Below are positions 1,835 through 13,074 of a DNA stretch of 64,000 nucleotides, piece by piece. The number at the start of each line of letters is the position of its first letter. The stretch's first letter is position 1. Below the pieces are notes generated by a model. That model ran no database searches and was not told the DNA's origin. It worked only from the letters and a program-made list of their open reading frames with translations. Source of the DNA: Bdellovibrio bacteriovorus str. Tiberius (GTDB taxonomy: Bacteria; Bdellovibrionota; Bdellovibrionia; Bdellovibrionales; Bdellovibrionaceae); assembly GCF_000317895.1 (NCBI RefSeq), contig NC_019567.1:434001-498000 (forward strand). Reading direction: 5' to 3'. Both the position numbers and the translations under genes were made by a program.

Positions 1835-2851
1835 TTAGTAAAGGTATTGTTCAAATACTTCGGCCCTGTCGGACCAGTGTTTTATAAATTTATAGTTGTC
1901 AGTCAGAATCACGATCTTCAAATCTGATTCAGGAATCACCGCGACCAGCGAGTAAAACCCCGGTGTCGCCCCATTGTGCCAGTAAGCCTGATAAGACTGC
2001 TTTTCAGAGCGCACCCAGCCCAGTGAGTAGTGCTTGTCCTTGTTCAGCAGTGGCAGCGTCTGTCGCTGTTGTCCCAGCCACCGCATAAGATCCAGGGCGG
2101 AAGACTTGATGCCTCCGGCACCAGCGGATTTATACAAAGAACTTTCCTTGTTCAGATGCCACTGTATTGAGCTTCCCGGTATCAGTGCATATGCCGGAAG
2201 TCTGTCACCTTTTTGAATCGCGGCCGTTGTGGAAGTGGGCACGTGATTCTGCAGGATTTGGGAAAAGTTTTTCTGCTCAATGATTTCCAGAACCCGGGAC
2301 AGAACCAGATATCCAAAGTTGGAATATCCGAATTCTTCCCCGGGTGCTGAATTCAGGTCCTTGTCTTCCAGAACCAGTGTGTCGATATCCTGCAAGTTCC
2401 AGTCAGCACTCATGGAGCGTTTTAAAAAGCTTACCAGGCTCAGATCCCGGCCAAAGCCGGACTTATGATCCAACAGCTGTTGAAGAGTGATCTTCTGCAA
2501 GTCTCCGGCGCAGAAGTTTTTCAGCCAGTGGCAGACCGGGGTGTCGAGTTTTAAACCCTGCTGCGATTTATGAAAGTAAATCAAACCCACAAAGGACTTC
2601 GATATGCTGGCGATGGGATAAACCTTATTCAGGTCCCCGTCGGCAAATAGCACGTCAGAGCCTTTTTGGATCAGAATGCTTCCGTGAATCAGATTGTCTT
2701 TCTTTAGCTCCTGCCAAGTGTTCTGCAGGTGGGTGGCTAATTCATTTTCCTTCACTTTCTGAACGTCAGGGCTGCACGAAAAGAACTGCAGGCCCACCCA
2801 GGAATAGATCAGGACGGTGAAAGTATGGCTCAAAATTTTTCTGACTTTCAT
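1835..2851 (-). CDS. Serine hydrolase lipoprotein, class C beta-lactamase / DD-peptidase fold
   Basis: 338 residues. It starts with a lipoprotein signal ending at C26 (QFFSC), so it is probably lipid-anchored. The catalytic signatures of the beta-lactamase/PBP-like superfamily are visible: SxxK (S82-I-S-K85), an LLxHxSG segment near 126-132, YSN (Y176-S177-N178) and HNG (H292-N293-G294) in the place of the KTG box. Such enzymes are acyl-serine esterases, peptidases or amidases; the substrate cannot be read from sequence. The gene overlaps the HTTM gene upstream by the four bases ATGA and is tightly coupled to the secreted protein downstream, so all are one operon. An antibiotic-resistance role is not implied. 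Confidence 0.85.
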   Translation of the reverse strand: MKVRKILSHTFTVLIYSWVGLQFFSCSPDVQKVKENELATHLQNTWQELKKDNLIHGSILIQKGSDVLFADGDLNKVYPIASISKSFVGLIYFHKSQQGLKLDTPVCHWLKNFCAGDLQKITLQQLLDHKSGFGRDLSLVSFLKRSMSADWNLQDIDTLVLEDKDLNSAPGEEFGYSNFGYLVLSRVLEIIEQKNFSQILQNHVPTSTTAAIQKGDRLPAYALIPGSSIQWHLNKESSLYKSAGAGGIKSSALDLMRWLGQQRQTLPLLNKDKHYSLGWVRSEKQSYQAYWHNGATPGFYSLVAVIPESDLKIVILTDNYKFIKHWSDRAEVFEQYLY

Positions 2852-3723
2852 GCCCGCACCTTTTTCAGTAAGGATCCAAACAGTCCTTTTTCTTCGTCTT
2901 CATAGAAAAAGAAGTAACTTACGCACATGGCAAATCCGAACATGAACAGACCCATCACCAAAGAAATCGAAAGATGCAAAACCGTTCCCATCAGCACGAT
3001 GTAGGGTCTCCAGTTGCGCTGCCAGATCAGATAAGGCAGCGAGATTTGAAACAGAACAGTTCCCAACGTCATTGCTGCCAGCAGCAGGGGATAGTTGGAA
3101 AGGGTGTTAAAGATCCCGTGGTTGCCGTATTCACTGACCCCCATGGTGTAGTAAAGGGCGACCCCTTTGTTCCACAAAGGCCCCATGACCTTCAAAAGAC
3201 CGGCGGTAGCGTAGACCAGAGTGACCTGGATTTTGATCATCAGTGCTGCAAGATTCGTCAGGGTGATTGAAAACGCGGATTGTGTTTCTTTGGTGTTGAT
3301 GAAGATCAGATAGAATGTCACCAGATGCATCAGGTTGTTACCTCCATCCAAAGTCACATAAGCCTTGTTATCCAGATTCATCATCAGAAAGTAAACCACC
3401 GCCGCAGAGGTGCGGGGGGCCTTTTCAAAGAAGGCAATAGCAGTCACTACCAGAGTTAGCGTCAGAAAAACGGGATAAGCGTCGGCGAAGGGCCCCCAGT
3501 GCAGAAGATTCAGGGATTTTTCCAACAGATTCAGACTGTCGAAATCCTTGGCCGGAATGTAAGCACTGCTGGAATAGAAATAGGCGGCCTTTGTCGCAAG
3601 AATGCCGTAGTTGATAAAGGCCCAGGCATACACCAGGCGGCGGGCAAAGCGCAGTGCCTGCAGGGATTTTACTTCCAGATGCAGCTTTAGATAGAATTCT
3701 TTCAGTTGCTGAATCAGTTCCAT
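2848..3723 (-). CDS. HTTM-domain membrane protein (vitamin K-dependent gamma-carboxylase-like)
   Basis: 291 residues with about six to seven transmembrane helices. The motifs DGGNNLMH (central) and the following QVTLVYATAGLLKVMGPLW with NKGVALYY match the HTTM domain, the membrane part shared with vitamin K-dependent gamma-glutamyl carboxylase. Bacterial HTTM proteins without the carboxylase lumenal domain are common and mostly uncharacterised. The gene overlaps the upstream DUF5819-like gene by ten bases and the downstream serine hydrolase by four. HTTM genes next to genes of the QNWxLFAP type are a recurrent pair, which strengthens both calls. Substrate and reaction are unknown. Confidence 0.8.
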   Translation of the reverse strand: MELIQQLKEFYLKLHLEVKSLQALRFARRLVYAWAFINYGILATKAAYFYSSSAYIPAKDFDSLNLLEKSLNLLHWGPFADAYPVFLTLTLVVTAIAFFEKAPRTSAAVVYFLMMNLDNKAYVTLDGGNNLMHLVTFYLIFINTKETQSAFSITLTNLAALMIKIQVTLVYATAGLLKVMGPLWNKGVALYYTMGVSEYGNHGIFNTLSNYPLLLAAMTLGTVLFQISLPYLIWQRNWRPYIVLMGTVLHLSISLVMGLFMFGFAMCVSYFFFYEDEEKGLFGSLLKKVRA

Positions 3724-4262
3724 GCGAAGGACTCCTGTTTGATACCGAAGGTGAAGGTTTCGGTGCGCACTTCGGTGTTAGAGAAGCGCTTGGAATAGTC
3801 TTGAGTGAACACGCGCTGAAGTCGCACTTCGGCGGCGGCTTGTTCGCCGCACTGGTCTTGCAAGTATCTTTGCAGGATGTGCAGTTCATCCATGGCAGCG
3901 TCTGTTTTTTTTAGAATCTTGCTGTTAAAAATTTCGCGGGCTAAATGTTGCAGAACGTAGGTCTGCTTTCCTTTGGCTGTCACGGGAAGGGACTTGTGGG
4001 AATCAAGTAGGTCGTTCAAAGGAAACTTCCAGGCTTGCAGACTGTCGCAGCGATAGGACAATTGCAGGCTTGAGGTGGCCGGTTCTGGTGCGAACAGGTG
4101 CCAGTTCTGGGTGAAGAACGTTCCCATGTAAGTGTCGACAAAGTTCATATATTGAGGTGTCGCAGGGTTGTTGGGCGCCAGATACAGGGCATGGACTGCC
4201 AGATGCAGGCCCAGAATGCCCAGCAAAGTCAGTTTCAATGTGTGAAGAGTGAATGCTTTCAT
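3714..4262 (-). CDS. DUF5819-like membrane-anchored protein, partner of HTTM protein
   Basis: 182 residues from the ATG at 4262 (GGAG seven bases upstream). A longer frame to 4397 exists, but the start at MKAFTLH places an N-terminal signal-anchor helix correctly. After the helix comes TQNWHLFAPEP (within the first 60 residues), the hallmark I associate with DUF5819-type proteins encoded beside HTTM genes. The remainder is a soluble, presumably periplasmic domain with two cysteines. First gene of the 4262-1237 operon. Function unknown; probably works with the HTTM protein. Confidence 0.7.
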   Translation of the reverse strand: MKAFTLHTLKLTLLGILGLHLAVHALYLAPNNPATPQYMNFVDTYMGTFFTQNWHLFAPEPATSSLQLSYRCDSLQAWKFPLNDLLDSHKSLPVTAKGKQTYVLQHLAREIFNSKILKKTDAAMDELHILQRYLQDQCGEQAAAEVRLQRVFTQDYSKRFSNTEVRTETFTFGIKQESFAWN

Positions 4263-4442
4263 TTGAACTCCGTTACTGACTGGAACATTAAGCAGTGGCT
4301 GTGCCGGGCTCAGTTTCAATAGGTTCTTTATGAAGGGTCTTTGGTGTGGTTCTGATCTTAAATGCGGGACCTGGTCCAAGAATCTGGAAGAATGCAAACG
4401 GGTCTCGGCCAGTGGCGTCCGGCATGGGGTTAGGTCGGAGAT

Positions 4443-4929: not shown

Positions 4930-4966
4930 AAATGTCCACCGCCAGAAAAGCAGTGGACATTTTTTT
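4930..4966. terminator. Rho-independent terminator between convergent genes
   Basis: A 10-bp stem (AAATGTCCAC/GTGGACATTT) is followed by a T run on the plus strand. It follows the cupin gene and faces the end of the S1/P1 nuclease gene. Confidence 0.85.
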
Positions 4967-4969
4967 GAA

Positions 4970-6040
4970 CTATTTTTTATCTTCTGTTTTCGGAACTTCG
5001 ATATAGTCCGGAGTCACGAAATCAACCGTGAACGGATATTTGTAGGACTTGTAAGCCCCGATTTTTGGTTTGCCAGCAGAAGCATAGGCTTCATCCCAAA
5101 GCGCTGCCAAAAGAACCGCACCACGAGCCATTTCAGTGACGATCATTGGCTTCATTTTTTTGAAGGCCACAGAGGACGGTTGGCGTTCTGCCGCGGTTTT
5201 AAGTTCCATGCCTTTTTCTTTCACCAAAGTGGATTTTTTGGTGACCGGATCCATTTTCAGGATTTTAGGAATCTCTTTGTTTGAGATCACGCTAAGGACT
5301 TTCATTTTCTCAATGGCTGTTTTCGGCTTCATGAATTCCGGATTCTTCATTCCGCGAGCCGCCTTCAGTACCAGATAGTCAAGGTCCCCATCAAACTGAC
5401 CGACAACCTGATCTTCAAAGTAAGCATGGATGCCACCGTGGCCGGCGGCATAGCCGTCATAGTCGGCTGTGGTGTGGAATGGCTGACAGTTGTCGCCGAC
5501 AAAGTGACCCATCAGACCCATGGATACAACCATATCGTAAGCCAGCTTGTTGTAAGGAAGCTCGTTGTCCTGTTCTTCTTTGAAGTTCGTTGGCGCTTTG
5601 GCTTTCGCGAAGTCTTCTTTCAGGCCGGCGATATGGCGCATGAACTGGTCAGCTCTCCACCAGGAAGATCCGAATTCCTGAGGGATGGACTTGATCGTGG
5701 AGCCGTCATTTTTGAATTTGTTCGGTTTGCCGGTGAAGTCAGTCATCAGTTGTTTGTAATCAACAGTGATGTCTTTTACATCCAGGCCAATAACTTCGAT
5801 GTCGATGAAGTGGGTGGAATTACCCAGCTTTGCAGCATCGCCACCAAGGCTTTTCCAGTAAAAATCCGGCATGTTGCACAGGTGTCCCATCATCTGGGGT
5901 TTGTGCTGCAGGTATTCTTTCAGGCCCGGTTCTTTCACCAGGAAAGTGGCAACACGGCAAATGGTGTCGTGACCACGGCCACCCCAGGCAAACGCCTGTG
6001 AAGATCCAAGAAGAAGCAATGCCAACAGAATATTTCTCAT
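4970..6040 (-). CDS. Secreted S1/P1-type zinc nuclease
   Basis: 356 residues from the ATG at 6040. Signal peptide 1-18 leaves W19 as the mature N-terminus, exactly as in S1/P1 nucleases whose N-terminal Trp coordinates zinc. Further ligand motifs in order: WGGRGH (W19, H24), MPDF (D59), THFID (H77, D80), MGHFVGDNCQPFH (H179, D183, H189) and HAYFED (H205). The family cleaves single-stranded DNA and RNA to 5'-nucleotides and has 3'-nucleotidase activity. It is exported to the periplasm or outside. Only 14 bases separate it from the stop codon of the upstream nucleoside-transporter permease gene, so it appears to be the last gene of that operon. This suggests coupled degradation and uptake of nucleic acids. 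Identification is firm; substrate preference is inference. Confidence 0.9.
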   Translation of the reverse strand: MRNILLALLLLGSSQAFAWGGRGHDTICRVATFLVKEPGLKEYLQHKPQMMGHLCNMPDFYWKSLGGDAAKLGNSTHFIDIEVIGLDVKDITVDYKQLMTDFTGKPNKFKNDGSTIKSIPQEFGSSWWRADQFMRHIAGLKEDFAKAKAPTNFKEEQDNELPYNKLAYDMVVSMGLMGHFVGDNCQPFHTTADYDGYAAGHGGIHAYFEDQVVGQFDGDLDYLVLKAARGMKNPEFMKPKTAIEKMKVLSVISNKEIPKILKMDPVTKKSTLVKEKGMELKTAAERQPSSVAFKKMKPMIVTEMARGAVLLAALWDEAYASAGKPKIGAYKSYKYPFTVDFVTPDYIEVPKTEDKK

Positions 6041-6054
6041 AGAGACCTCGTAAA

Positions 6055-6927
6055 TTATTGGTGACCCAGTGCTTTTGGAGCCCGGCTTTTGCCGATAAAG
6101 CCCGCAAGAGCAATGACAGTCACGATGTAAGGTAAAATCTGAACAAACTGAACTGGAATTTCCACACCGCCGATTTGCACGCCCTGCAGACGGATTTGCA
6201 CGGCATCTGCAAAGGCGAACAACAAACAGGCCGCAAAGGCCGGAACCGGCTTCCATTTGCCGAAGATCAGCGCCGCCAAGGCCATGAAGCCTCGGCCGCC
6301 CGTCATCATCGGCGAATAAGACGAAGCCAGGAACAACGAAAGGCTGGCGCCACCCATCGCCGCGAACGCCCCGCTCAAGGTCACCGCCGACCAGCGGACT
6401 TTACGAACACTGACACCACTGGCAGTCAGTGCCTCAGGATTTTCACCGGCAAACAGAATCCACAGGCCAGAACGCGTGCGGAACATCCAGAAGCTGATTG
6501 CGGCAACCAAAAGGCCCGCCATCAATAACGGCTCAAAGGTAAAACGGTCTTCCACCAACAAGGCTGGGGTCGATCCCGTGGAGCTGAAAAGAATCTTTGT
6601 CACAAACGGGATAAAGCCCATCACAAAAAGATTCACGGCCATACCGGTGATGATCTGATCGGCTTTGAGTTCGATCACAAAAAAAGCATAAACGGCGCCA
6701 ATAGCAAGACCGGCCAATAAGGCAAAGCCCCAGCCCATCCACGCTGACGCAAAATACTGACCGGCGATCGCACCGGCGAAGGCGCCGATCAGCATGAAGC
6801 CCTCAAGGGCGACATTGACCACGCCCGAGCGTTCACTCATCAATCCACCCATAGAGGCAAACACCAGCGGAGTCGCCAGGCGCAGGGTGGCCAAAGTCAA
6901 AGACAGAATCCAGGTCATTGTTTCCAT
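6055..6927 (-). CDS. ABC transporter permease, nucleoside/BMP type (second permease)
   Basis: 290 residues, eight or so membrane helices. The N-terminal segment ATPLVFASMGGLMSERSGV followed by VNVALEGFMLIGAF is the conserved signature of the branched permease family (BPD_transp_2) that works with BMP-type binding proteins, as in the YufQ/NupQ nucleoside permease. It is one half of a heterodimeric inner-membrane channel with the product of 6928-7956. The genes are directly adjacent with no gap. Substrate is inferred from family (nucleosides or purines), supported by the nuclease gene next door. Confidence 0.9.
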   Translation of the reverse strand: METMTWILSLTLATLRLATPLVFASMGGLMSERSGVVNVALEGFMLIGAFAGAIAGQYFASAWMGWGFALLAGLAIGAVYAFFVIELKADQIITGMAVNLFVMGFIPFVTKILFSSTGSTPALLVEDRFTFEPLLMAGLLVAAISFWMFRTRSGLWILFAGENPEALTASGVSVRKVRWSAVTLSGAFAAMGGASLSLFLASSYSPMMTGGRGFMALAALIFGKWKPVPAFAACLLFAFADAVQIRLQGVQIGGVEIPVQFVQILPYIVTVIALAGFIGKSRAPKALGHQ

Positions 6928-7956
6928 TTAACCTTTTCTCCTTTTGATTTTGATCCATTCCCAATAGCCCTGAGCCACCACTCCCAAGATCACCAAAGCC
7001 TGGATGATACGAGAAAAGTCGCGGGTGATCGTGGTCGTTTCAAGATCCAGATCTGAAGCGCCCTTATGAAGCGCGCCCATCAGGAAGGCCGCCACGATAA
7101 TCCCCAACGGATTGTTGCTGGCAAGCAGGGCGACGGCGATGCCGATAAAGCCATAGTCCGGAGAAAAGCCAATACGATATTGTCCGGCACTGCCCAGAAC
7201 TTCAGACAAAGCAACGAAGCCTGCCATCACTCCGGCCAAGGTCATTGCCAGAATGCGCACTTTCTTTTCCGAAATTCCCGCGCGGTGGGCGGCTTCGGGA
7301 TTGGAGCCCACTGCCCGCAATTCAAAGCCCCATGTGGTTTTCCAGAGGAATATCCACATCAAAACCGCCAGCACAACCGCAAAACCCAAAGAGGCATTCG
7401 CCGGGGTGTCCGGGAACAGACGGGCAATCAGATCATAGTCCTTGAACATGTACTGAGGCGCCACCATGGCCGTTTCAGGATTCTGGGATTCAGGATTGGG
7501 AATGATCTTCAGAGTGAACCAGCTGGCAAGGCCTGCGGCGATAAAGTTCATCATGATGGTGATGATGACTTCGTGACTGCCACGCACGGCGCGCAGCCAA
7601 CCCGCAATCCAGCCCCACAGACCGGCAGCCACAAGACCCGCCAGCAGCGCAATGACTGGAGCCAGCGGGAAAGGAATTTGTGGGAACAGCACACCGATAG
7701 CTGCGGTCGTGACCACGGCCATGGTCAACTGACCTTCAGCGCCGATATTGAAAAGACCGGCATGGAAGCCGATGGCAACGGAAAGGCCACAGAAAATCAA
7801 AGGCGTGGTGTAAGAAAGGGTCAGTCCCAGATCGTACATGGAGCCAAAAGCACTGCGCACCAGAATCATAAAGACATTCCACGGATTTTCACCTGCGAAC
7901 AAAGTCAGCAGCAAAGCCAGTGTCAATCCCAGGAAGAAACCAAAGACCCGTTTCAA
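6928..7956 (-). CDS. ABC transporter permease, nucleoside/BMP type (first permease)
   Basis: 342 residues. It is an integral membrane protein of the same permease family as its neighbour, resembling YufP/NupP: TTPLIFCGLSVAIGFHAGLF followed by NIGAEGQLTM near residue 50-80, then further paired helices and SNPEAAHRAGISEKKVR, the cytoplasmic loop that contacts the ATPase. The stop of the ATPase gene at 7953 overlaps this start codon at 7956 by four bases, so translation is coupled. Part of the five-gene minus-strand operon from 10418 to 4970. Confidence 0.9.
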   Translation of the reverse strand: MKRVFGFFLGLTLALLLTLFAGENPWNVFMILVRSAFGSMYDLGLTLSYTTPLIFCGLSVAIGFHAGLFNIGAEGQLTMAVVTTAAIGVLFPQIPFPLAPVIALLAGLVAAGLWGWIAGWLRAVRGSHEVIITIMMNFIAAGLASWFTLKIIPNPESQNPETAMVAPQYMFKDYDLIARLFPDTPANASLGFAVVLAVLMWIFLWKTTWGFELRAVGSNPEAAHRAGISEKKVRILAMTLAGVMAGFVALSEVLGSAGQYRIGFSPDYGFIGIAVALLASNNPLGIIVAAFLMGALHKGASDLDLETTTITRDFSRIIQALVILGVVAQGYWEWIKIKRRKG

Positions 7957-9425
7957 TGTCCACCTCCCATGGCTTTACCAAGGGAAATTTCATTGAAGGC
8001 GGAGCGGGTGAACTCGGCCACCAGATGGCCTTTGTAAAGAACAACAATGCGATCAGAAAGGGCCATCAGTTCATCCAGCTCAGAAGAGATCAAAAGCACA
8101 CCGGCGCCTTCATCACGGCAGCGGCGCAGTTCATTGTGAATAAATTCAATAGCCCCAATATCCACGCCACGGGTTGGTTGAGCGGCGACGATCACATCGG
8201 GTTTCTGAGTCAGAGCGCGGGCCACGACAAGTTTTTGCTGATTTCCACCGGACAGTTTTTCAAAAGGCAGATGTTCATCGTGAGGACGGACATCGTATTC
8301 CTTCATGATCTCGCGGGTGCGCTCAATCAAAGCGCGGGTTTTCAGCAGCAAGCCGGAATTGAACAGGCCGGAGCGCTGTTGCCCCAGCAGGAAGTTTTCA
8401 TATACAGGGCGGGAAGGCAGTACGCCGAAACGCAGACGGTCTTCAGGGAAGGCCTGAAGTGTTCCTTCGCGAAGCACCTGCCCCTGAAGGGAATGTTTGT
8501 TCAGTGACTTTTGATCCAGCAAGGCGCGAATCAGAATGTCCTGGCCGTTGCCTTCAACACCGGCTACGCCGACGATTTCGCGGGCATGAACTTTTAAAGA
8601 GATATTTTCAATGCGATGGTTCCCCATGGCGGCCGAGAGGTTTTCAAAGTTCAGCAGCACATGGTTGTGGTCCACTGAGCTGGTGCGTTCCTGCGGATTT
8701 TGCAAACAGCGTCCGACCATCAGTTCTGCCAGCTCTTCCACGGAGGTTTCGCGGGTTGCTTTGTGTGCGACCATGCGGCCTGCGCGGAAGATGGTCACGG
8801 CATCAGACAGGGCCATCACTTCCTTCAGTTTGTGGGTGATGATCAGGATGGTTTTACCTTCAGCTTTCAGCTTGCGAAGATTGGTGAAGAGCTCCTGGAC
8901 TTCCTGCGGAGTCAGAACCGCGGTGGGTTCATCCAGAATCAGAATCTTTGAATCCTGGGACAGGATCTTCAGGATTTCAATGCGCTGTTGTTCGCCGACG
9001 GACAGATCCTCGACTTTGGCATCCAGATCGACCTCAAAGCCATACCGTGCGGCAATGTCATTCAGGCGTTGTCTTTGTTCGGCGCGTGGAAGCAGGGAAA
9101 AGGCAGAGCCTTTTTGCTGCAGCAGAATGTTGTCCAGGGCCGTGAAGGGTTCGGCCAGCATGAAGTGCTGATGAACCATGCCGATACCGGCAGCCATGGC
9201 ATCAATCGGGGTTTCAAATGTGACGGGGTTTCCGTGAATCAGAATGTCACCGCCATCAGGCTGATACATTCCAAAAAGGATTTTCATGGCGGTGGATTTG
9301 CCGGCCCCGTTTTCACCCACGATAGCATGGATGGAGCCGGAAGGTATTGCGAAAGAGATGTCCGAGTTGGCGCGAACGGAGCCAAAGTATTTGCTGATGC
9401 CTTTGAATTCAACCGCCATGGACAT
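7953..9425 (-). CDS. ABC transporter ATP-binding protein, duplicated ATPase (nucleoside/sugar type)
   Basis: About 490 residues with two ATPase domains in one chain. The first has a perfect Walker A (GENGAGKST), signature LSVGEQQRIE and Walker B ILILDEPT. The second has the degenerate Walker A (GVEGNGQ) and signature LSGGNQQKLVVARAL typical of the RbsA/YufO class. It energises the two permeases. Start choice is uncertain: a GTG at 9437 directly abuts the upstream stop codon, but the ATG at 9425 has TAGGTG at a suitable distance; I chose 9425. The ATG at 9419 is also possible. Confidence 0.9.
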   Translation of the reverse strand: MSMAVEFKGISKYFGSVRANSDISFAIPSGSIHAIVGENGAGKSTAMKILFGMYQPDGGDILIHGNPVTFETPIDAMAAGIGMVHQHFMLAEPFTALDNILLQQKGSAFSLLPRAEQRQRLNDIAARYGFEVDLDAKVEDLSVGEQQRIEILKILSQDSKILILDEPTAVLTPQEVQELFTNLRKLKAEGKTILIITHKLKEVMALSDAVTIFRAGRMVAHKATRETSVEELAELMVGRCLQNPQERTSSVDHNHVLLNFENLSAAMGNHRIENISLKVHAREIVGVAGVEGNGQDILIRALLDQKSLNKHSLQGQVLREGTLQAFPEDRLRFGVLPSRPVYENFLLGQQRSGLFNSGLLLKTRALIERTREIMKEYDVRPHDEHLPFEKLSGGNQQKLVVARALTQKPDVIVAAQPTRGVDIGAIEFIHNELRRCRDEGAGVLLISSELDELMALSDRIVVLYKGHLVAEFTRSAFNEISLGKAMGGGH

Positions 9426-9437
9426 GTTAACAGGCAC

Positions 9438-10418
9438 CTATTTCTTTTTGTAGTAATCAGGAACCTGGATCTGGCCAGCGATGATTTTCTTTTTGATCTC
9501 TTCGACCTTTTTCTTCATGTCGGCAGTGATCAGTTTTTCGTTGTGCTTGTCCAGAGTGTAGTTCACGCCCTGATTTTTCAGGCCGTAACGAATTTCACCC
9601 GCCGTGAATTTACCGGCTTGAGCTTCTTTGATGGTGTCATACACCGCCACATCGACGGCTTTCATCATGCTGGTCAGGATCACACCCGGCTTGATCCAGT
9701 TCTGGTTAGAATCAACCCCGATGGCAAATTTCTTTTTTTCTTCAGCGGCATCAAAGACGCCGGTGTTGGAAGCACCTGCTGCCACAAAGATCACGTCGCT
9801 GCCTTTGGCAATTTGTGCCAGGGCAAGTTCTTTGGCCTTGGCCGGATTGTTCCAGGCCTCGCCGGTCACACCCACGTAGTTTTCAGTGATATTGATTTTC
9901 GGGTTTACATATTTGGCACCTGCCACATAACCCATAGAGAATCTGCGGATCAGCGGAATATCCATCCCGCCAACAAAGCCCACCGAGTTGGACTTGGAAG
10001 CCATCGCCGCCAGCGCACCCACCAGGAACGAGCCTTCATGTTCTTCAAAAAGCAGTGAGCGCACATTCGGTGCTTTGACATCACTGTCGATAACCGCGAA
10101 CTTAATTTTCGGGAATTGCGCGGCTACTTTTTTAACCGCTTCCTGCTGGGCAAAGCCCACGCCGATGATCAGATCAAAATTTTTGCGAGCAAAAGCACGG
10201 TGCAGATTTTCAATGGCATTGGTGTCAGTGGCTTCAACGTACTTCAGGTCGATCTTCAGATCCTGCTCTGCTTTTTTTGCTCCAAGATACGCAGCGGAGT
10301 TGAAAGACTTGTCGTCTTTGCCGCCTTTATCGAGAACCAAACCAACTTTTAGGGAATTTGCGTGGGAAAATGTGCCGATTGACAGGAATAACAGCATCGT
10401 AACGAAGCTTTTTGCCAT
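9438..10418 (-). CDS. BMP-family substrate-binding protein of nucleoside ABC transporter
   Basis: 326 residues. Signal peptide 1-20 (cleavage after SHA) without a lipobox cysteine, so it should be a soluble periplasmic receptor. The mature start LKVGLVLDKGGKDDKSFN is the family signature of Bmp/PnrA/Med proteins, which bind purine nucleosides. Later motifs include IIGVGFAQQ, KFAVID and GFVGGMD. It is the first gene of the operon and has a GGAG ribosome site. The region upstream, shared with the divergent Crp/Fnr gene, contains a CRP-like palindrome. Nucleoside specificity is known for the family and inferred here. Confidence 0.9.
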   Translation of the reverse strand: MAKSFVTMLLFLSIGTFSHANSLKVGLVLDKGGKDDKSFNSAAYLGAKKAEQDLKIDLKYVEATDTNAIENLHRAFARKNFDLIIGVGFAQQEAVKKVAAQFPKIKFAVIDSDVKAPNVRSLLFEEHEGSFLVGALAAMASKSNSVGFVGGMDIPLIRRFSMGYVAGAKYVNPKINITENYVGVTGEAWNNPAKAKELALAQIAKGSDVIFVAAGASNTGVFDAAEEKKKFAIGVDSNQNWIKPGVILTSMMKAVDVAVYDTIKEAQAGKFTAGEIRYGLKNQGVNYTLDKHNEKLITADMKKKVEEIKKKIIAGQIQVPDYYKKK

Positions 10419-10529
10419 TTTTGGACTCCACTAAAACCACTCTTACAGCGATGTCATATGCTGAATAAGAGCATGAAATTACGAAAAAATTCCATTTTTG
10501 AATTGGGCTGAAAGTAGGGGAGGCCCCTG

Positions 10530-10545
10530 TATGAGTCAAGTCATA
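10530..10545. promoter_or_regulatory. CRP-like palindromic operator candidate
   Basis: TATGA-GTCAAG-TCATA: perfect 5-base arms with a 6-base centre, the same architecture as a CRP/FNR half-site pair (consensus TGTGA-N6-TCACA). It lies between the nucleoside-transport operon and the Crp/Fnr-family gene and could serve either. Prediction only. Confidence 0.4.
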
Positions 10546-10589
10546 AGTATGTTTGTGCGTAAACAGGAGGCCGTTACAAGAGTGTTATG

Positions 10590-10618
10590 TCGAAATTTCA
10601 ATTAGGAGGCTGTATAAT
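10590..10618 (+). promoter_or_regulatory. Sigma70-type promoter for the Crp/Fnr gene
   Basis: A perfect TATAAT at 10613-10618 with a 17-base spacer to TCGAAA (10590-10595, 4 of 6 matches to TTGACA). The leader to the ATG at 10678 would be about 50 bases. Confidence 0.5.
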
Positions 10619-10677
10619 ACCAGTTTAGGATGACCTCAACAATTAACCCAACGAAGAAAGCTCGGAGGTAAAAGAGT

Positions 10678-11394
10678 ATGGAATCTCAGACAATACTCAA
10701 CGGCGGAGTAAACTCCCTTGGTTTTATGGGTGGTCAAAACCTAAGTATTCCGAATACTTCAAACGTTCCCTATGAAGTCATTCATCTCAAAGAAGAGGAG
10801 ATGATCTTCAAAGAAGGGGAGCCGGCGAAGGGTCTGTATTACGTTCAGTCGGGATGTGTTAAAGTTGTTGTAAATCGATCCCACGCGCGCGGCCGCACCA
10901 CGACTAACGAATACGTGACGAAGCTTGTATCACCAGGTGAATACTTTGGCTATAAGTCACTTGTGAAAGGTGCTGTAACACAAAGTCACGCCAAAGCTGT
11001 GAAATCCACAGTTCTTTGGTTGTATCCACGTGAACTTATTCAAGTGGCGATGGCACAATCCAGCCCCCTGATTAAGTTGCTTTTGAATCAGGCTGTTAAC
11101 GATCTTGAATCTTTCGAAACCATCAGTCAGCTTCACTACCTGGCATCTGTTCAGGAACGTATTGCTTATCAACTGGTGCTTTTGGCTGACAGATTCGGGG
11201 TTCAGACACCGAATGGTATTTCTTTGAATTTGAAACTGACAAGAAATGAGTTCGCTCAGCTTGCCAGCACGATCAATGAGTCCTTGTCTCGTCATTTGAC
11301 AGAGTTTAAAAATGAAGGCCTTATCGACCTCAATGGTAAAGAAATCATCATCAAGAATAAAGACGGTCTGATGAGAAGATCTGGCAATTTCTAG
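10678..11394 (+). CDS. Crp/Fnr-family transcriptional regulator
   Basis: 238 residues. After a flexible N-terminus of about 30 residues comes a cyclic-nucleotide-binding-type beta-barrel (about 35-120, including IFKEGEPAKGLYYVQSG and PGEYFGYKSL), a dimerisation helix, and a winged helix-turn-helix (about 186-225) with LTRNEFAQLASTINESLSRH as the recognition unit. There is no N-terminal cysteine cluster, so it is not a classical oxygen-sensing FNR. The ligand is unknown; PGEYFGYKSL is less conserved than the cAMP phosphate-binding cassette. Good ribosome site (GGAGG). It is divergent from the nucleoside-uptake and nuclease operon, which makes that operon a plausible target. A terminator follows. 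Confidence 0.9.
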   Translation: MESQTILNGGVNSLGFMGGQNLSIPNTSNVPYEVIHLKEEEMIFKEGEPAKGLYYVQSGCVKVVVNRSHARGRTTTNEYVTKLVSPGEYFGYKSLVKGAVTQSHAKAVKSTVLWLYPRELIQVAMAQSSPLIKLLLNQAVNDLESFETISQLHYLASVQERIAYQLVLLADRFGVQTPNGISLNLKLTRNEFAQLASTINESLSRHLTEFKNEGLIDLNGKEIIIKNKDGLMRRSGNF

Positions 11395-11459: not shown

Positions 11460-13004
11460 CTACAACCAGGATTCAGGAACGAACACGGAGCAAAATCCGG
11501 CTTTAAAGCGTTTCCACCAGCTGGTCTCTGGATCTTTGGTAAATATTTGCTCGTGCCCCTGTTCATCGGTGGTTTTCCAGATCAGGTTCTTTTTGGCGTT
11601 CAGTAAAACTTGATAGCTGTCTTCGCGAAGATTGGCGATCAGATTCTTACTGATTATTTCGGCCAGTTCCGGGCTGTCAACCACCACGCCCATTTCGCTG
11701 TTTAAAGTGGCGGAACGAGGATCCAGGTTCATAGAGCCTACAAAAACTTTCTTTCGGTCAAAAATAAAGACTTTCCCGTGCAAACCGGCGCTGGAAAAGC
11801 TCGAGCCGACACGATTTTTCTTGGGCATGGTTTTCTGGGGAGTGGGTTTTAGTTCATACAGACTGACACCGTGACCCAGCAAGTCCTTGCGATAGCCCTT
11901 GTAACCGGAAAAGACGGTGGCCACATCACTGGAAGCCAGCGAGTTGGTCAGAACCAGCGATTGAACTCCGCGGTCGTTCAGATTTTTGAAGAACTTCACT
12001 CCTTTTTTTCCTGGAATGAAATAAGGCGAAACCAGAATCAGCTCTTTCTCGGTTTTTTCAATCAAAGGATAAAGCTGATGGGCCAGGTTGCTGGTTTGTT
12101 CCGTGGAATCCTGGCGGAATTTTTCCGGCGGATCAATCACCACTTCGGCTTTGCCCCAGTAAAGGGTCAAAGGTTCGCGGGTGAATTTTTTCACCATCGG
12201 AGTTTCCTTCAAGGCGGCGGCGTACTGGGTCTTTTCCGCTTCCTCGACGGCGGCTGCGGCATCGGCTTTCAGTTTTTGCAGATCTTCGGCGGTGGGCTGG
12301 AATCCATTTACCAACACAGAAATAGGATAGGCGATTTCGCTGTTCCAGTAAGAATCAAATTCCCTCGAAAGATCCTGCACCACCGGACCGATGGCCCACA
12401 GATCGAAATCACCAAAGTTCATTTCTTCGCTGGCCCAGAAGTATTCATTGCCAATATTGCGCCCACCCACGATCGCGGTTTGATTGTCGACGACAAAGAC
12501 CTTGTTGTGCATGCGACGGTTGACGGTGGAAAATCTCATCGCATCCAGGATGCGCCAGCTTCTTCCCGCGAAAGGATTTGCCATGCGAACTTCGATGTTG
12601 GGGTGCGAATCCAAAATGGCAAGGCCTCGTTCATAGCGGCCTTGATTCAGATCGTCCAGCAGAACGCGCACGCGCACACCCCGATCGGCGGCCAGCAGCA
12701 CTTCGTGCACCAGCATTCTTCCGGTCAGGTCATTTTCCCAAATATAGTATTGCAGATCGATGCTGCGATCAGAAACTGCGACCGCCGCCATGCGAGCGAC
12801 TAACGCCTCGAGGCCGGAAGCCAGCGGGTAAAAGCCCGACTGTCCGGGATGTTTTTTAAGCTGATCTTCTGTGGCCTGTGCCAGCTGGGTCTTTGGATCT
12901 GGCGGCAGGGCTTCAGAATAAGGACGATTTGTATTGGGTGGGAGCGAGGCGCACCCCAGATAGAAACCAAGAACAATGGGAATGGGTAAAAGTTTTTTTA
13001 TCAC
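11460..13004 (-). CDS. Phospholipase D family lipoprotein, ClsC-like cardiolipin synthase
   Basis: 514 residues from the GTG at 13004. This start gives a lipoprotein signal ending in YLGC18; the longer frame to 13055 runs through a terminator hairpin and is unlikely. Two HKD motifs are complete: H166-N-K168-x4-D173 and H409-G-K411-x4-D416, each followed by the conserved G-G/S-N region. The segment LTNSLASSDVATVFSGYKGY with ELKP matches ClsC/YmdC-type enzymes, which make cardiolipin from phosphatidylglycerol and phosphatidylethanolamine. A secreted phospholipase role on prey membranes is an alternative. The start codon lies six bases after the terminator of the upstream redoxin gene and has no clear Shine-Dalgarno, which is unusual. 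Confidence 0.88.
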   Translation of the reverse strand: MIKKLLPIPIVLGFYLGCASLPPNTNRPYSEALPPDPKTQLAQATEDQLKKHPGQSGFYPLASGLEALVARMAAVAVSDRSIDLQYYIWENDLTGRMLVHEVLLAADRGVRVRVLLDDLNQGRYERGLAILDSHPNIEVRMANPFAGRSWRILDAMRFSTVNRRMHNKVFVVDNQTAIVGGRNIGNEYFWASEEMNFGDFDLWAIGPVVQDLSREFDSYWNSEIAYPISVLVNGFQPTAEDLQKLKADAAAAVEEAEKTQYAAALKETPMVKKFTREPLTLYWGKAEVVIDPPEKFRQDSTEQTSNLAHQLYPLIEKTEKELILVSPYFIPGKKGVKFFKNLNDRGVQSLVLTNSLASSDVATVFSGYKGYRKDLLGHGVSLYELKPTPQKTMPKKNRVGSSFSSAGLHGKVFIFDRKKVFVGSMNLDPRSATLNSEMGVVVDSPELAEIISKNLIANLREDSYQVLLNAKKNLIWKTTDEQGHEQIFTKDPETSWWKRFKAGFCSVFVPESWL

Positions 13005-13010
13005 AAATAA

Positions 13011-13040
13011 AAACCCCGTACTTAAAAGGGTACGGGGTTT
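13011..13040 (-). terminator. Rho-independent terminator after the redoxin gene, abutting the next start codon
   Basis: An 11-bp stem (AAACCCCGTAC/GTACGGGGTTT) with an 8-base loop is followed by a T-rich run on the minus strand. It ends the dsbD-redoxin transcript and stands directly before the GTG of the phospholipase D family gene. Confidence 0.8.
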
Positions 13041-13074
13041 TGGTGGCAGTCTCAAATTGTAAGTGAGCAGGTGT

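Follow-up and report, generated by a model that had tools for sequence, protein, structure and literature searches.

Bdellovibrio bacteriovorus str. Tiberius carries an operon that is probably devoted to nucleic-acid scavenging and salvage. It encodes a BMP/PnrA-type ABC importer, predicted to carry nucleosides, and ends with an exported zinc enzyme of the P1-nuclease/phospholipase C superfamily. The linkage of enzyme and importer is conserved within the family Bdellovibrionaceae but is not obligatory. Prey DNA and RNA are a major food of these predators, and the literature examined does not name the importer of the breakdown products. The operon represents a concrete, testable enzyme-importer pair.

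Operon layout

The genome is a single contig of 3.99 Mb, from which a stretch of 64,000 nucleotides (the window) was analysed. All five operon genes lie on its minus strand, with the following features in and around them:

4930-4962, minus strand: terminator-like hairpin of 14 pairs at the operon end, just 3' of the enzyme gene; also in the two closest relatives
4970-6040, minus strand: zinc phosphoesterase, predicted to be secreted, from a divergent HxxxE clade of the P1-nuclease/phospholipase C superfamily, 356 aa (P0001); predicted signal peptide cleavage ahead of Trp19; sub-threshold S1-P1_nuclease match (24.9 bits)
6041-6054, minus strand: gap of 14 bases between permease 2 and the enzyme gene, with a GAGG ribosome-binding site; too short for a promoter
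6055-6927, minus strand: permease 2 (Pfam BPD_transp_2, E 2.6e-30), immediately 3' of permease 1
6928-7956, minus strand: permease 1 (Pfam BPD_transp_2, E 1.2e-42), with a 4-base overlap with the ATPase gene
7953-9437, minus strand: ATPase with two fused nucleotide-binding domains (Pfam ABC_tran, two stretches, E 1.3e-44), starting right after the BMP stop codon
9438-10418, minus strand: BMP/PnrA-type periplasmic protein, predicted to bind nucleosides, 326 aa (Pfam Bmp, E 2.2e-70); signal peptide without a lipobox cysteine
10419-10677, no strand: divergent intergenic region common to the operon and the crp-like gene; 257-297 bases long in 21/21 genus genomes compared
10622-10641, minus strand: candidate operator TGTTGA-N8-TAAACT, near the consensus TGTTTA-N8-TAAACA; a lead only
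10678-11394, plus strand: divergently transcribed Crp/Fnr-type regulator, a possible controller of the operon (cNMP_binding, E 1.7e-14; HTH_Crp_2, E 6.3e-14)

The gaps along the operon are 0, -4, 0 and 14 bases. The first-pass annotation of this DNA had described a secreted zinc nuclease gene placed last, 14 bases after a BMP-type nucleoside permease, and all five genes were found where it put them. The longest open reading frame of the enzyme opens at 6256, but GAGG stands before the ATG at 6040, and translation from there begins with a signal peptide that ends in AFA/W. Judged by these signals, ATG 6040 is most likely the true start, which sets the gap at 14 bases. The annotation had named a promoter or terminator between permease and nuclease as grounds for rejecting its proposal. 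There is no terminator-like site between permease 2 and the enzyme, and the gap leaves no room for a promoter. Among 30 family homologues, terminator-like hairpins followed the enzyme gene in 14 and lay within 130 bases 5' of it in two. The five genes are presumably co-transcribed; no expression data for the operon were found in the literature searched. Bd0446, a Bdellovibrio protein described as 'putative cyclic nucleotide binding' and possibly the product of the crp-like gene, appears in a predation proteome table (PMC12546842).

The operator consensus is a palindrome seen again in many relatives from several genera, at comparable distances from the crp-like start. The candidate in the window matches 10 of its 12 positions (p 0.03 by shuffling), and that of the genome L060, which lacks the transporter, matches all 12. 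As the motif was built from the same sequences used to test it, and several genomes have a weak version or none, we treat it as no more than a lead.

Two neighbouring loci were also recorded. Beyond the crp-like gene, positions 11460-13055 (minus strand) encode a predicted lipoprotein with two PLD-like domains (PLDc_2, E 2.1e-33), whose substrates could be lipids or nucleic acids. Positions 2848-3723 and 3714-4310 (minus strand) hold an overlapping pair, an HTTM-domain protein (match below cut-off) and a DUF5819 protein.

Conservation of the enzyme-importer linkage

The first-pass annotation had proposed a survey of the linkage in other genomes. The enzyme, permease 2 and the BMP protein were each searched in 100 related genomes and the matches joined by their coordinates. 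Where Bdellovibrionaceae genomes held both enzyme and permease, the two genes were adjacent on one strand in 42/47, across many genera and with gaps of 15-225 bases; they were unlinked in the other five. Outside the family both genes occurred in 11 genomes and were linked in none. Linkage within Bdellovibrionaceae is thus far above chance, and the five-gene arrangement is a feature of this family. The gene order crp, bmp, atp, perm1, perm2, enzyme is kept across genera. The enzyme tree requires at least eight changes of the linked state, a count that alone does not separate gain from loss. Several transporter-less genomes are however nested among linked ones, favouring repeated loss. No phage record contained the enzyme. 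Its gene is broken across two frames or contigs in L024 and L072 (G009), G034 and G048, which may reflect decay or assembly error.

The enzyme also occurs without the importer. Ten Bdellovibrionaceae genomes have the enzyme and lack the permease, and one has the permease and lacks the enzyme. In five of the ten, from four genera (L051, L052, L053, L055 and L060), all four importer genes are absent and the enzyme directly adjoins the crp-like gene, their starts 135-345 bases apart. The enzyme therefore does not need the BMP-type importer, and the coupling is not obligatory. These observations would fit a reading in which enzyme and importer have separate tasks and share a promoter region through history, the lasting pair being the crp-like gene and the enzyme. 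We regard this as unlikely, given that adjacency to the importer has been retained in 42 genomes and that nine of the ten enzyme-only genomes have another nucleoside permease.

The latter permease belongs to the CNT family (PF07662), which was searched first in 18 chosen genomes and then in all 100. In the chosen set it was present in 9/10 enzyme-only genomes versus 0/8 with the ABC importer, indicating that the pairing of the enzyme with some nucleoside importer persists and supporting a nucleic-acid-eating role for the cluster. Across the order, 62 of the 100 genomes had a BMP receptor, 32 a CNT permease, none both and six neither (Fisher's test 2e-20, relatedness of the genomes being ignored). 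Well-supported branches of the enzyme tree gave five independent pairs that differ in the BMP receptor; CNT changed in the opposite direction in three and in the same direction in none. When kinship was considered, the three informative independent pairs were all opposite, which is not significant (sign test p 0.25). Two nucleoside importers that can stand in for each other would be expected to show such a pattern, and their exclusion across the order provides comparative evidence on the cargo of the importer. We also checked the ATP/ADP translocase family (PF03219), for which neither the genomes nor the controls gave a match.

The terminal enzyme

The first-pass annotation had called the enzyme an S1/P1 nuclease. 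Its match to Pfam S1-P1_nuclease (PF02265; 24.9 bits, E 2.2e-5) falls short of the curated cut-off of 29.5. The match is weak and broken into pieces, which is why a search of its own genome with this profile returned nothing at E 0.001. NCBIfam assigns it to no family. All 44 family members nevertheless match S1-P1_nuclease at E up to 0.01 (best 8.7e-11). Nine of the 44 also match Zn_dep_PLPC (PF00882), weakly and with a poorer best E-value, whilst the window protein itself gave no such match at E up to 1.

Nine residues (W19, H24, D59, H77, H179, D183, H189, H205 and E209) are invariant in 64/64 homologues. In alignments they match the nine zinc ligands of S1/P1 nucleases and zinc phospholipase C. 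Eight of the nine are identical to the canonical S1/P1 set (Trp, His, Asp, His, His, Asp, His, His, Asp), but the last is Glu in 64/64 homologues versus Asp in 22/22 canonical proteins. The change is conservative, and Glu is used by phospholipase C. The resulting HxxxE pair, H205/E209, aligns with the His and Glu of phospholipase C and is a PF00882 feature. Canonical S1/P1 proteins also occur in the phylum, including some Bdellovibrionaceae genomes. The GGN loop and NLHxxWD, present in 22/22 canonical proteins, were found in 0/20 of the divergent clade, which instead has Gly-x-His-x-x-x-Glu with invariant W62, D264 and R286 in 20/20. In S1, the GGN-loop residue Asn154 contacts the sugar, and its mutant retains part of the activity; Phe81 and Asp83 form the base-site pair (PMC5201275). 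The counterparts of this pair in the enzyme are Phe78 and Asp80.

The AlphaFold model of the enzyme has a mean pLDDT of 94. In VIA alignments it has the S1/P1 fold, with Z 18.7-20.4 against S1/P1 nucleases (rmsd 3.3-3.9, 225-237 aligned residues) and Z 14.3-17.0 against zinc phospholipases C. All listed S1/P1 nucleases ranked above all listed phospholipases, and the comparison leans towards S1/P1 by about 3 Z units. Plant S1/P1 nucleases also ranked first in a profile search of the enzyme.

Taken together, these features place the enzyme in a divergent clade within the P1-nuclease/phospholipase C superfamily; it is not a canonical S1/P1 nuclease. As the ligand set, the GGN loop and the Pfam score all depart from that family, we refer to it as an S1/P1-like enzyme. 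From its modelled fold it most likely works as S1/P1 enzymes do. Given the HxxxE pair and the missing GGN loop, nuclease activity is presumed rather than assured, and what it actually cuts and releases is likewise presumptive. The same two features would fit an enzyme that resembles zinc phospholipase C, or is another phosphodiesterase or phosphatase, acting on prey lipids or small phosphorylated compounds and sharing the operon merely through joint induction during prey digestion. The fixed E209, Asp in every canonical protein, and the nine Zn_dep_PLPC matches point the same way. This is about as improbable as the separation of tasks considered above, or slightly more so, since the S1-P1_nuclease matches, the profile ranking and the fold all lie closer to S1/P1, and a nucleoside importer is the enzyme's regular company. 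The clade stands between two textbook families, and its substrate would show how members of the superfamily change over from nucleic acids to lipids or back.

The earlier interpretation was thus partly supported. It was too specific on the enzyme, which appears secreted, with a complete trinuclear zinc site and a fold nearer S1/P1, but departs from that family in the features above. It was too strong on the coupling of nucleic acid breakdown to nucleoside import: one conserved operon and a nucleoside-type pocket speak for the link, yet ten family genomes keep the enzyme alone.

The binding protein and the nucleotide step

The best PDB matches of the BMP protein were Lbp (1.5e-54), TmpC/PnrA (2.3e-40), pneumococcal PnrA (1e-39), BmpA (4e-38) and BmpD (2e-34). 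The solved structures closest to it are those of nucleoside receptors, whose pocket residues have been described (PMC7093131 and PMC13325309). Mapped onto TmpC/PnrA, Phe39, Asn40, Asp111, Phe160, Trp189, Asp236 and Lys253 fall on the described pocket positions; together with V235 they are identical in 21/21 family homologues. The sole pocket change relative to nucleoside receptors is Trp189, which replaces the second stacking Phe. The Bmp domain, the aromatic cradle, the ribose-binding residues and the four-gene layout with two BPD_transp_2 permeases and a double ATPase are all those of a BMP/PnrA-type importer. A nucleoside-type importer is thus well supported by sequence, with a nucleoside as the probable ligand of the BMP protein. 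The first-pass annotation had regarded a non-nucleoside ligand as damaging to its proposal, and the retained pocket gives no sign of one. NCBIfam suggested a putative B6 ABC importer (NF047927-NF047930), which was rejected as scores were below the cut-offs (103.6/400, 384.7/670, 133.1/465 and 152.7/400 bits).

S1/P1 nucleases mainly yield 5'-nucleotides and also have 3'-nucleotidase activity. 5'-Nucleotides are no cargo for a nucleoside importer, and a phosphatase is required to convert them. The first-pass annotation had anticipated that a nucleotidase would still be needed, and this holds: searches restricted to UshA-type (PF02872) and class B/C (PF03767) phosphatases gave no match in the genome, whilst controls matched. 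If 3'-nucleotides were the natural substrate, supplied perhaps by RNases whose products end in 3'-phosphates, the enzyme would serve a nucleoside importer directly. Four PNP_UDP_1 proteins in the genome are available for salvage.

The importer might alternatively carry nucleoside monophosphates, with the enzyme making 5'-nucleotides that the BMP protein brings in intact, so that no nucleotidase is needed. This explanation stays alive through older physiology: references cited in PMC7529429 report uptake of intact nucleoside monophosphates by Bdellovibrio 109J. It would also suit the absence of the two phosphatase types and the family-specific, invariant residues K31, R158, R159, W189, N240 and W241 of the BMP protein. 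We nonetheless think it improbable, as the ribose-contacting D111, D236 and K253 are all retained, the pockets of nucleoside receptors bury the nucleoside, and receptor-less genomes mostly have CNT permeases, a nucleoside carrier family. The bolder proposal that the operon is the Bdellovibrio route for intact nucleoside monophosphates, in which 5'-nucleotides produced by the new HxxxE clade would be taken up directly through a modified BMP receptor, is more doubtful still.

Proposed role

Under the preferred reading, a nucleic-acid salvage operon with the crp-like regulator transcribed away from it, the zinc phosphoesterase would be exported via Sec. Removal of the signal peptide would expose Trp19, whose main chain would help to hold the zinc cluster. 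The enzyme would then cut RNA or single-stranded DNA and/or strip 3'-phosphates, as S1/P1 enzymes do, either in the periplasm or in the prey. Nucleosides freed by it or by another phosphatase would pass to the BMP protein and be held between Phe39 and Trp189. The ATPase and two permeases would then import them for phosphorylases and other salvage enzymes. The operon is presumably used during predation.

Comparison with known systems

The enzyme resembles the S1/P1 family (S1, P1, TBN1, AtBFN2 and SmNuc1; PF02265) in a signal peptide that ends before Trp, the nine ligand places, the HFxGDxxQPxH motif, the Phe/Asp base-site pair after the His77 ligand and its overall fold. It differs in its last ligand (Glu, not Asp), its lack of a GGN loop, its sub-threshold Pfam score and its invariant W62, K/R63, D264 and R286, which are not found in canonical members. 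With zinc-dependent phospholipase C (PF00882) it shares the superfamily fold, the HxxxE pair and a short loop between the H189 and H205 counterparts, but fold similarity is lower and only 9/44 homologues match, weakly.

BMP/PnrA-type importers include Treponema TmpC/PnrA, pneumococcal PnrA and Borrelia BmpA/BmpD; BmpA-NupABC of Lactococcus is another such nucleoside ABC importer. The importer described here shares their binding protein, double-domain ATPase, two permeases and conserved nucleoside pocket. It differs in that Trp takes the place of the second stacking Phe, the receptor is predicted to be soluble rather than lipid-anchored, and a fifth gene encodes an exported zinc enzyme.

The closest precedent for the pairing is MAG_5040 of Mycoplasma agalactiae, an exported nuclease co-transcribed with an ABC importer proposed for nucleic acid precursors, for which an equivalent model was put forward (PMC3585158). 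There too a nuclease is paired with an importer and the linkage is conserved within a clade. However, MAG_5040 is a staphylococcal-type Mg nuclease encoded upstream rather than last, the binding lipoprotein is different, and the organism is a host-dependent parasite rather than a bacterial predator. In M. bovis, a permease of an ABC operon was shown to affect nucleoside uptake and the use of extracellular DNA (PMC12838404). The idea of nuclease-importer coupling is thus already known; what is new here is the enzyme clade, the BMP-type importer and the predatory setting.
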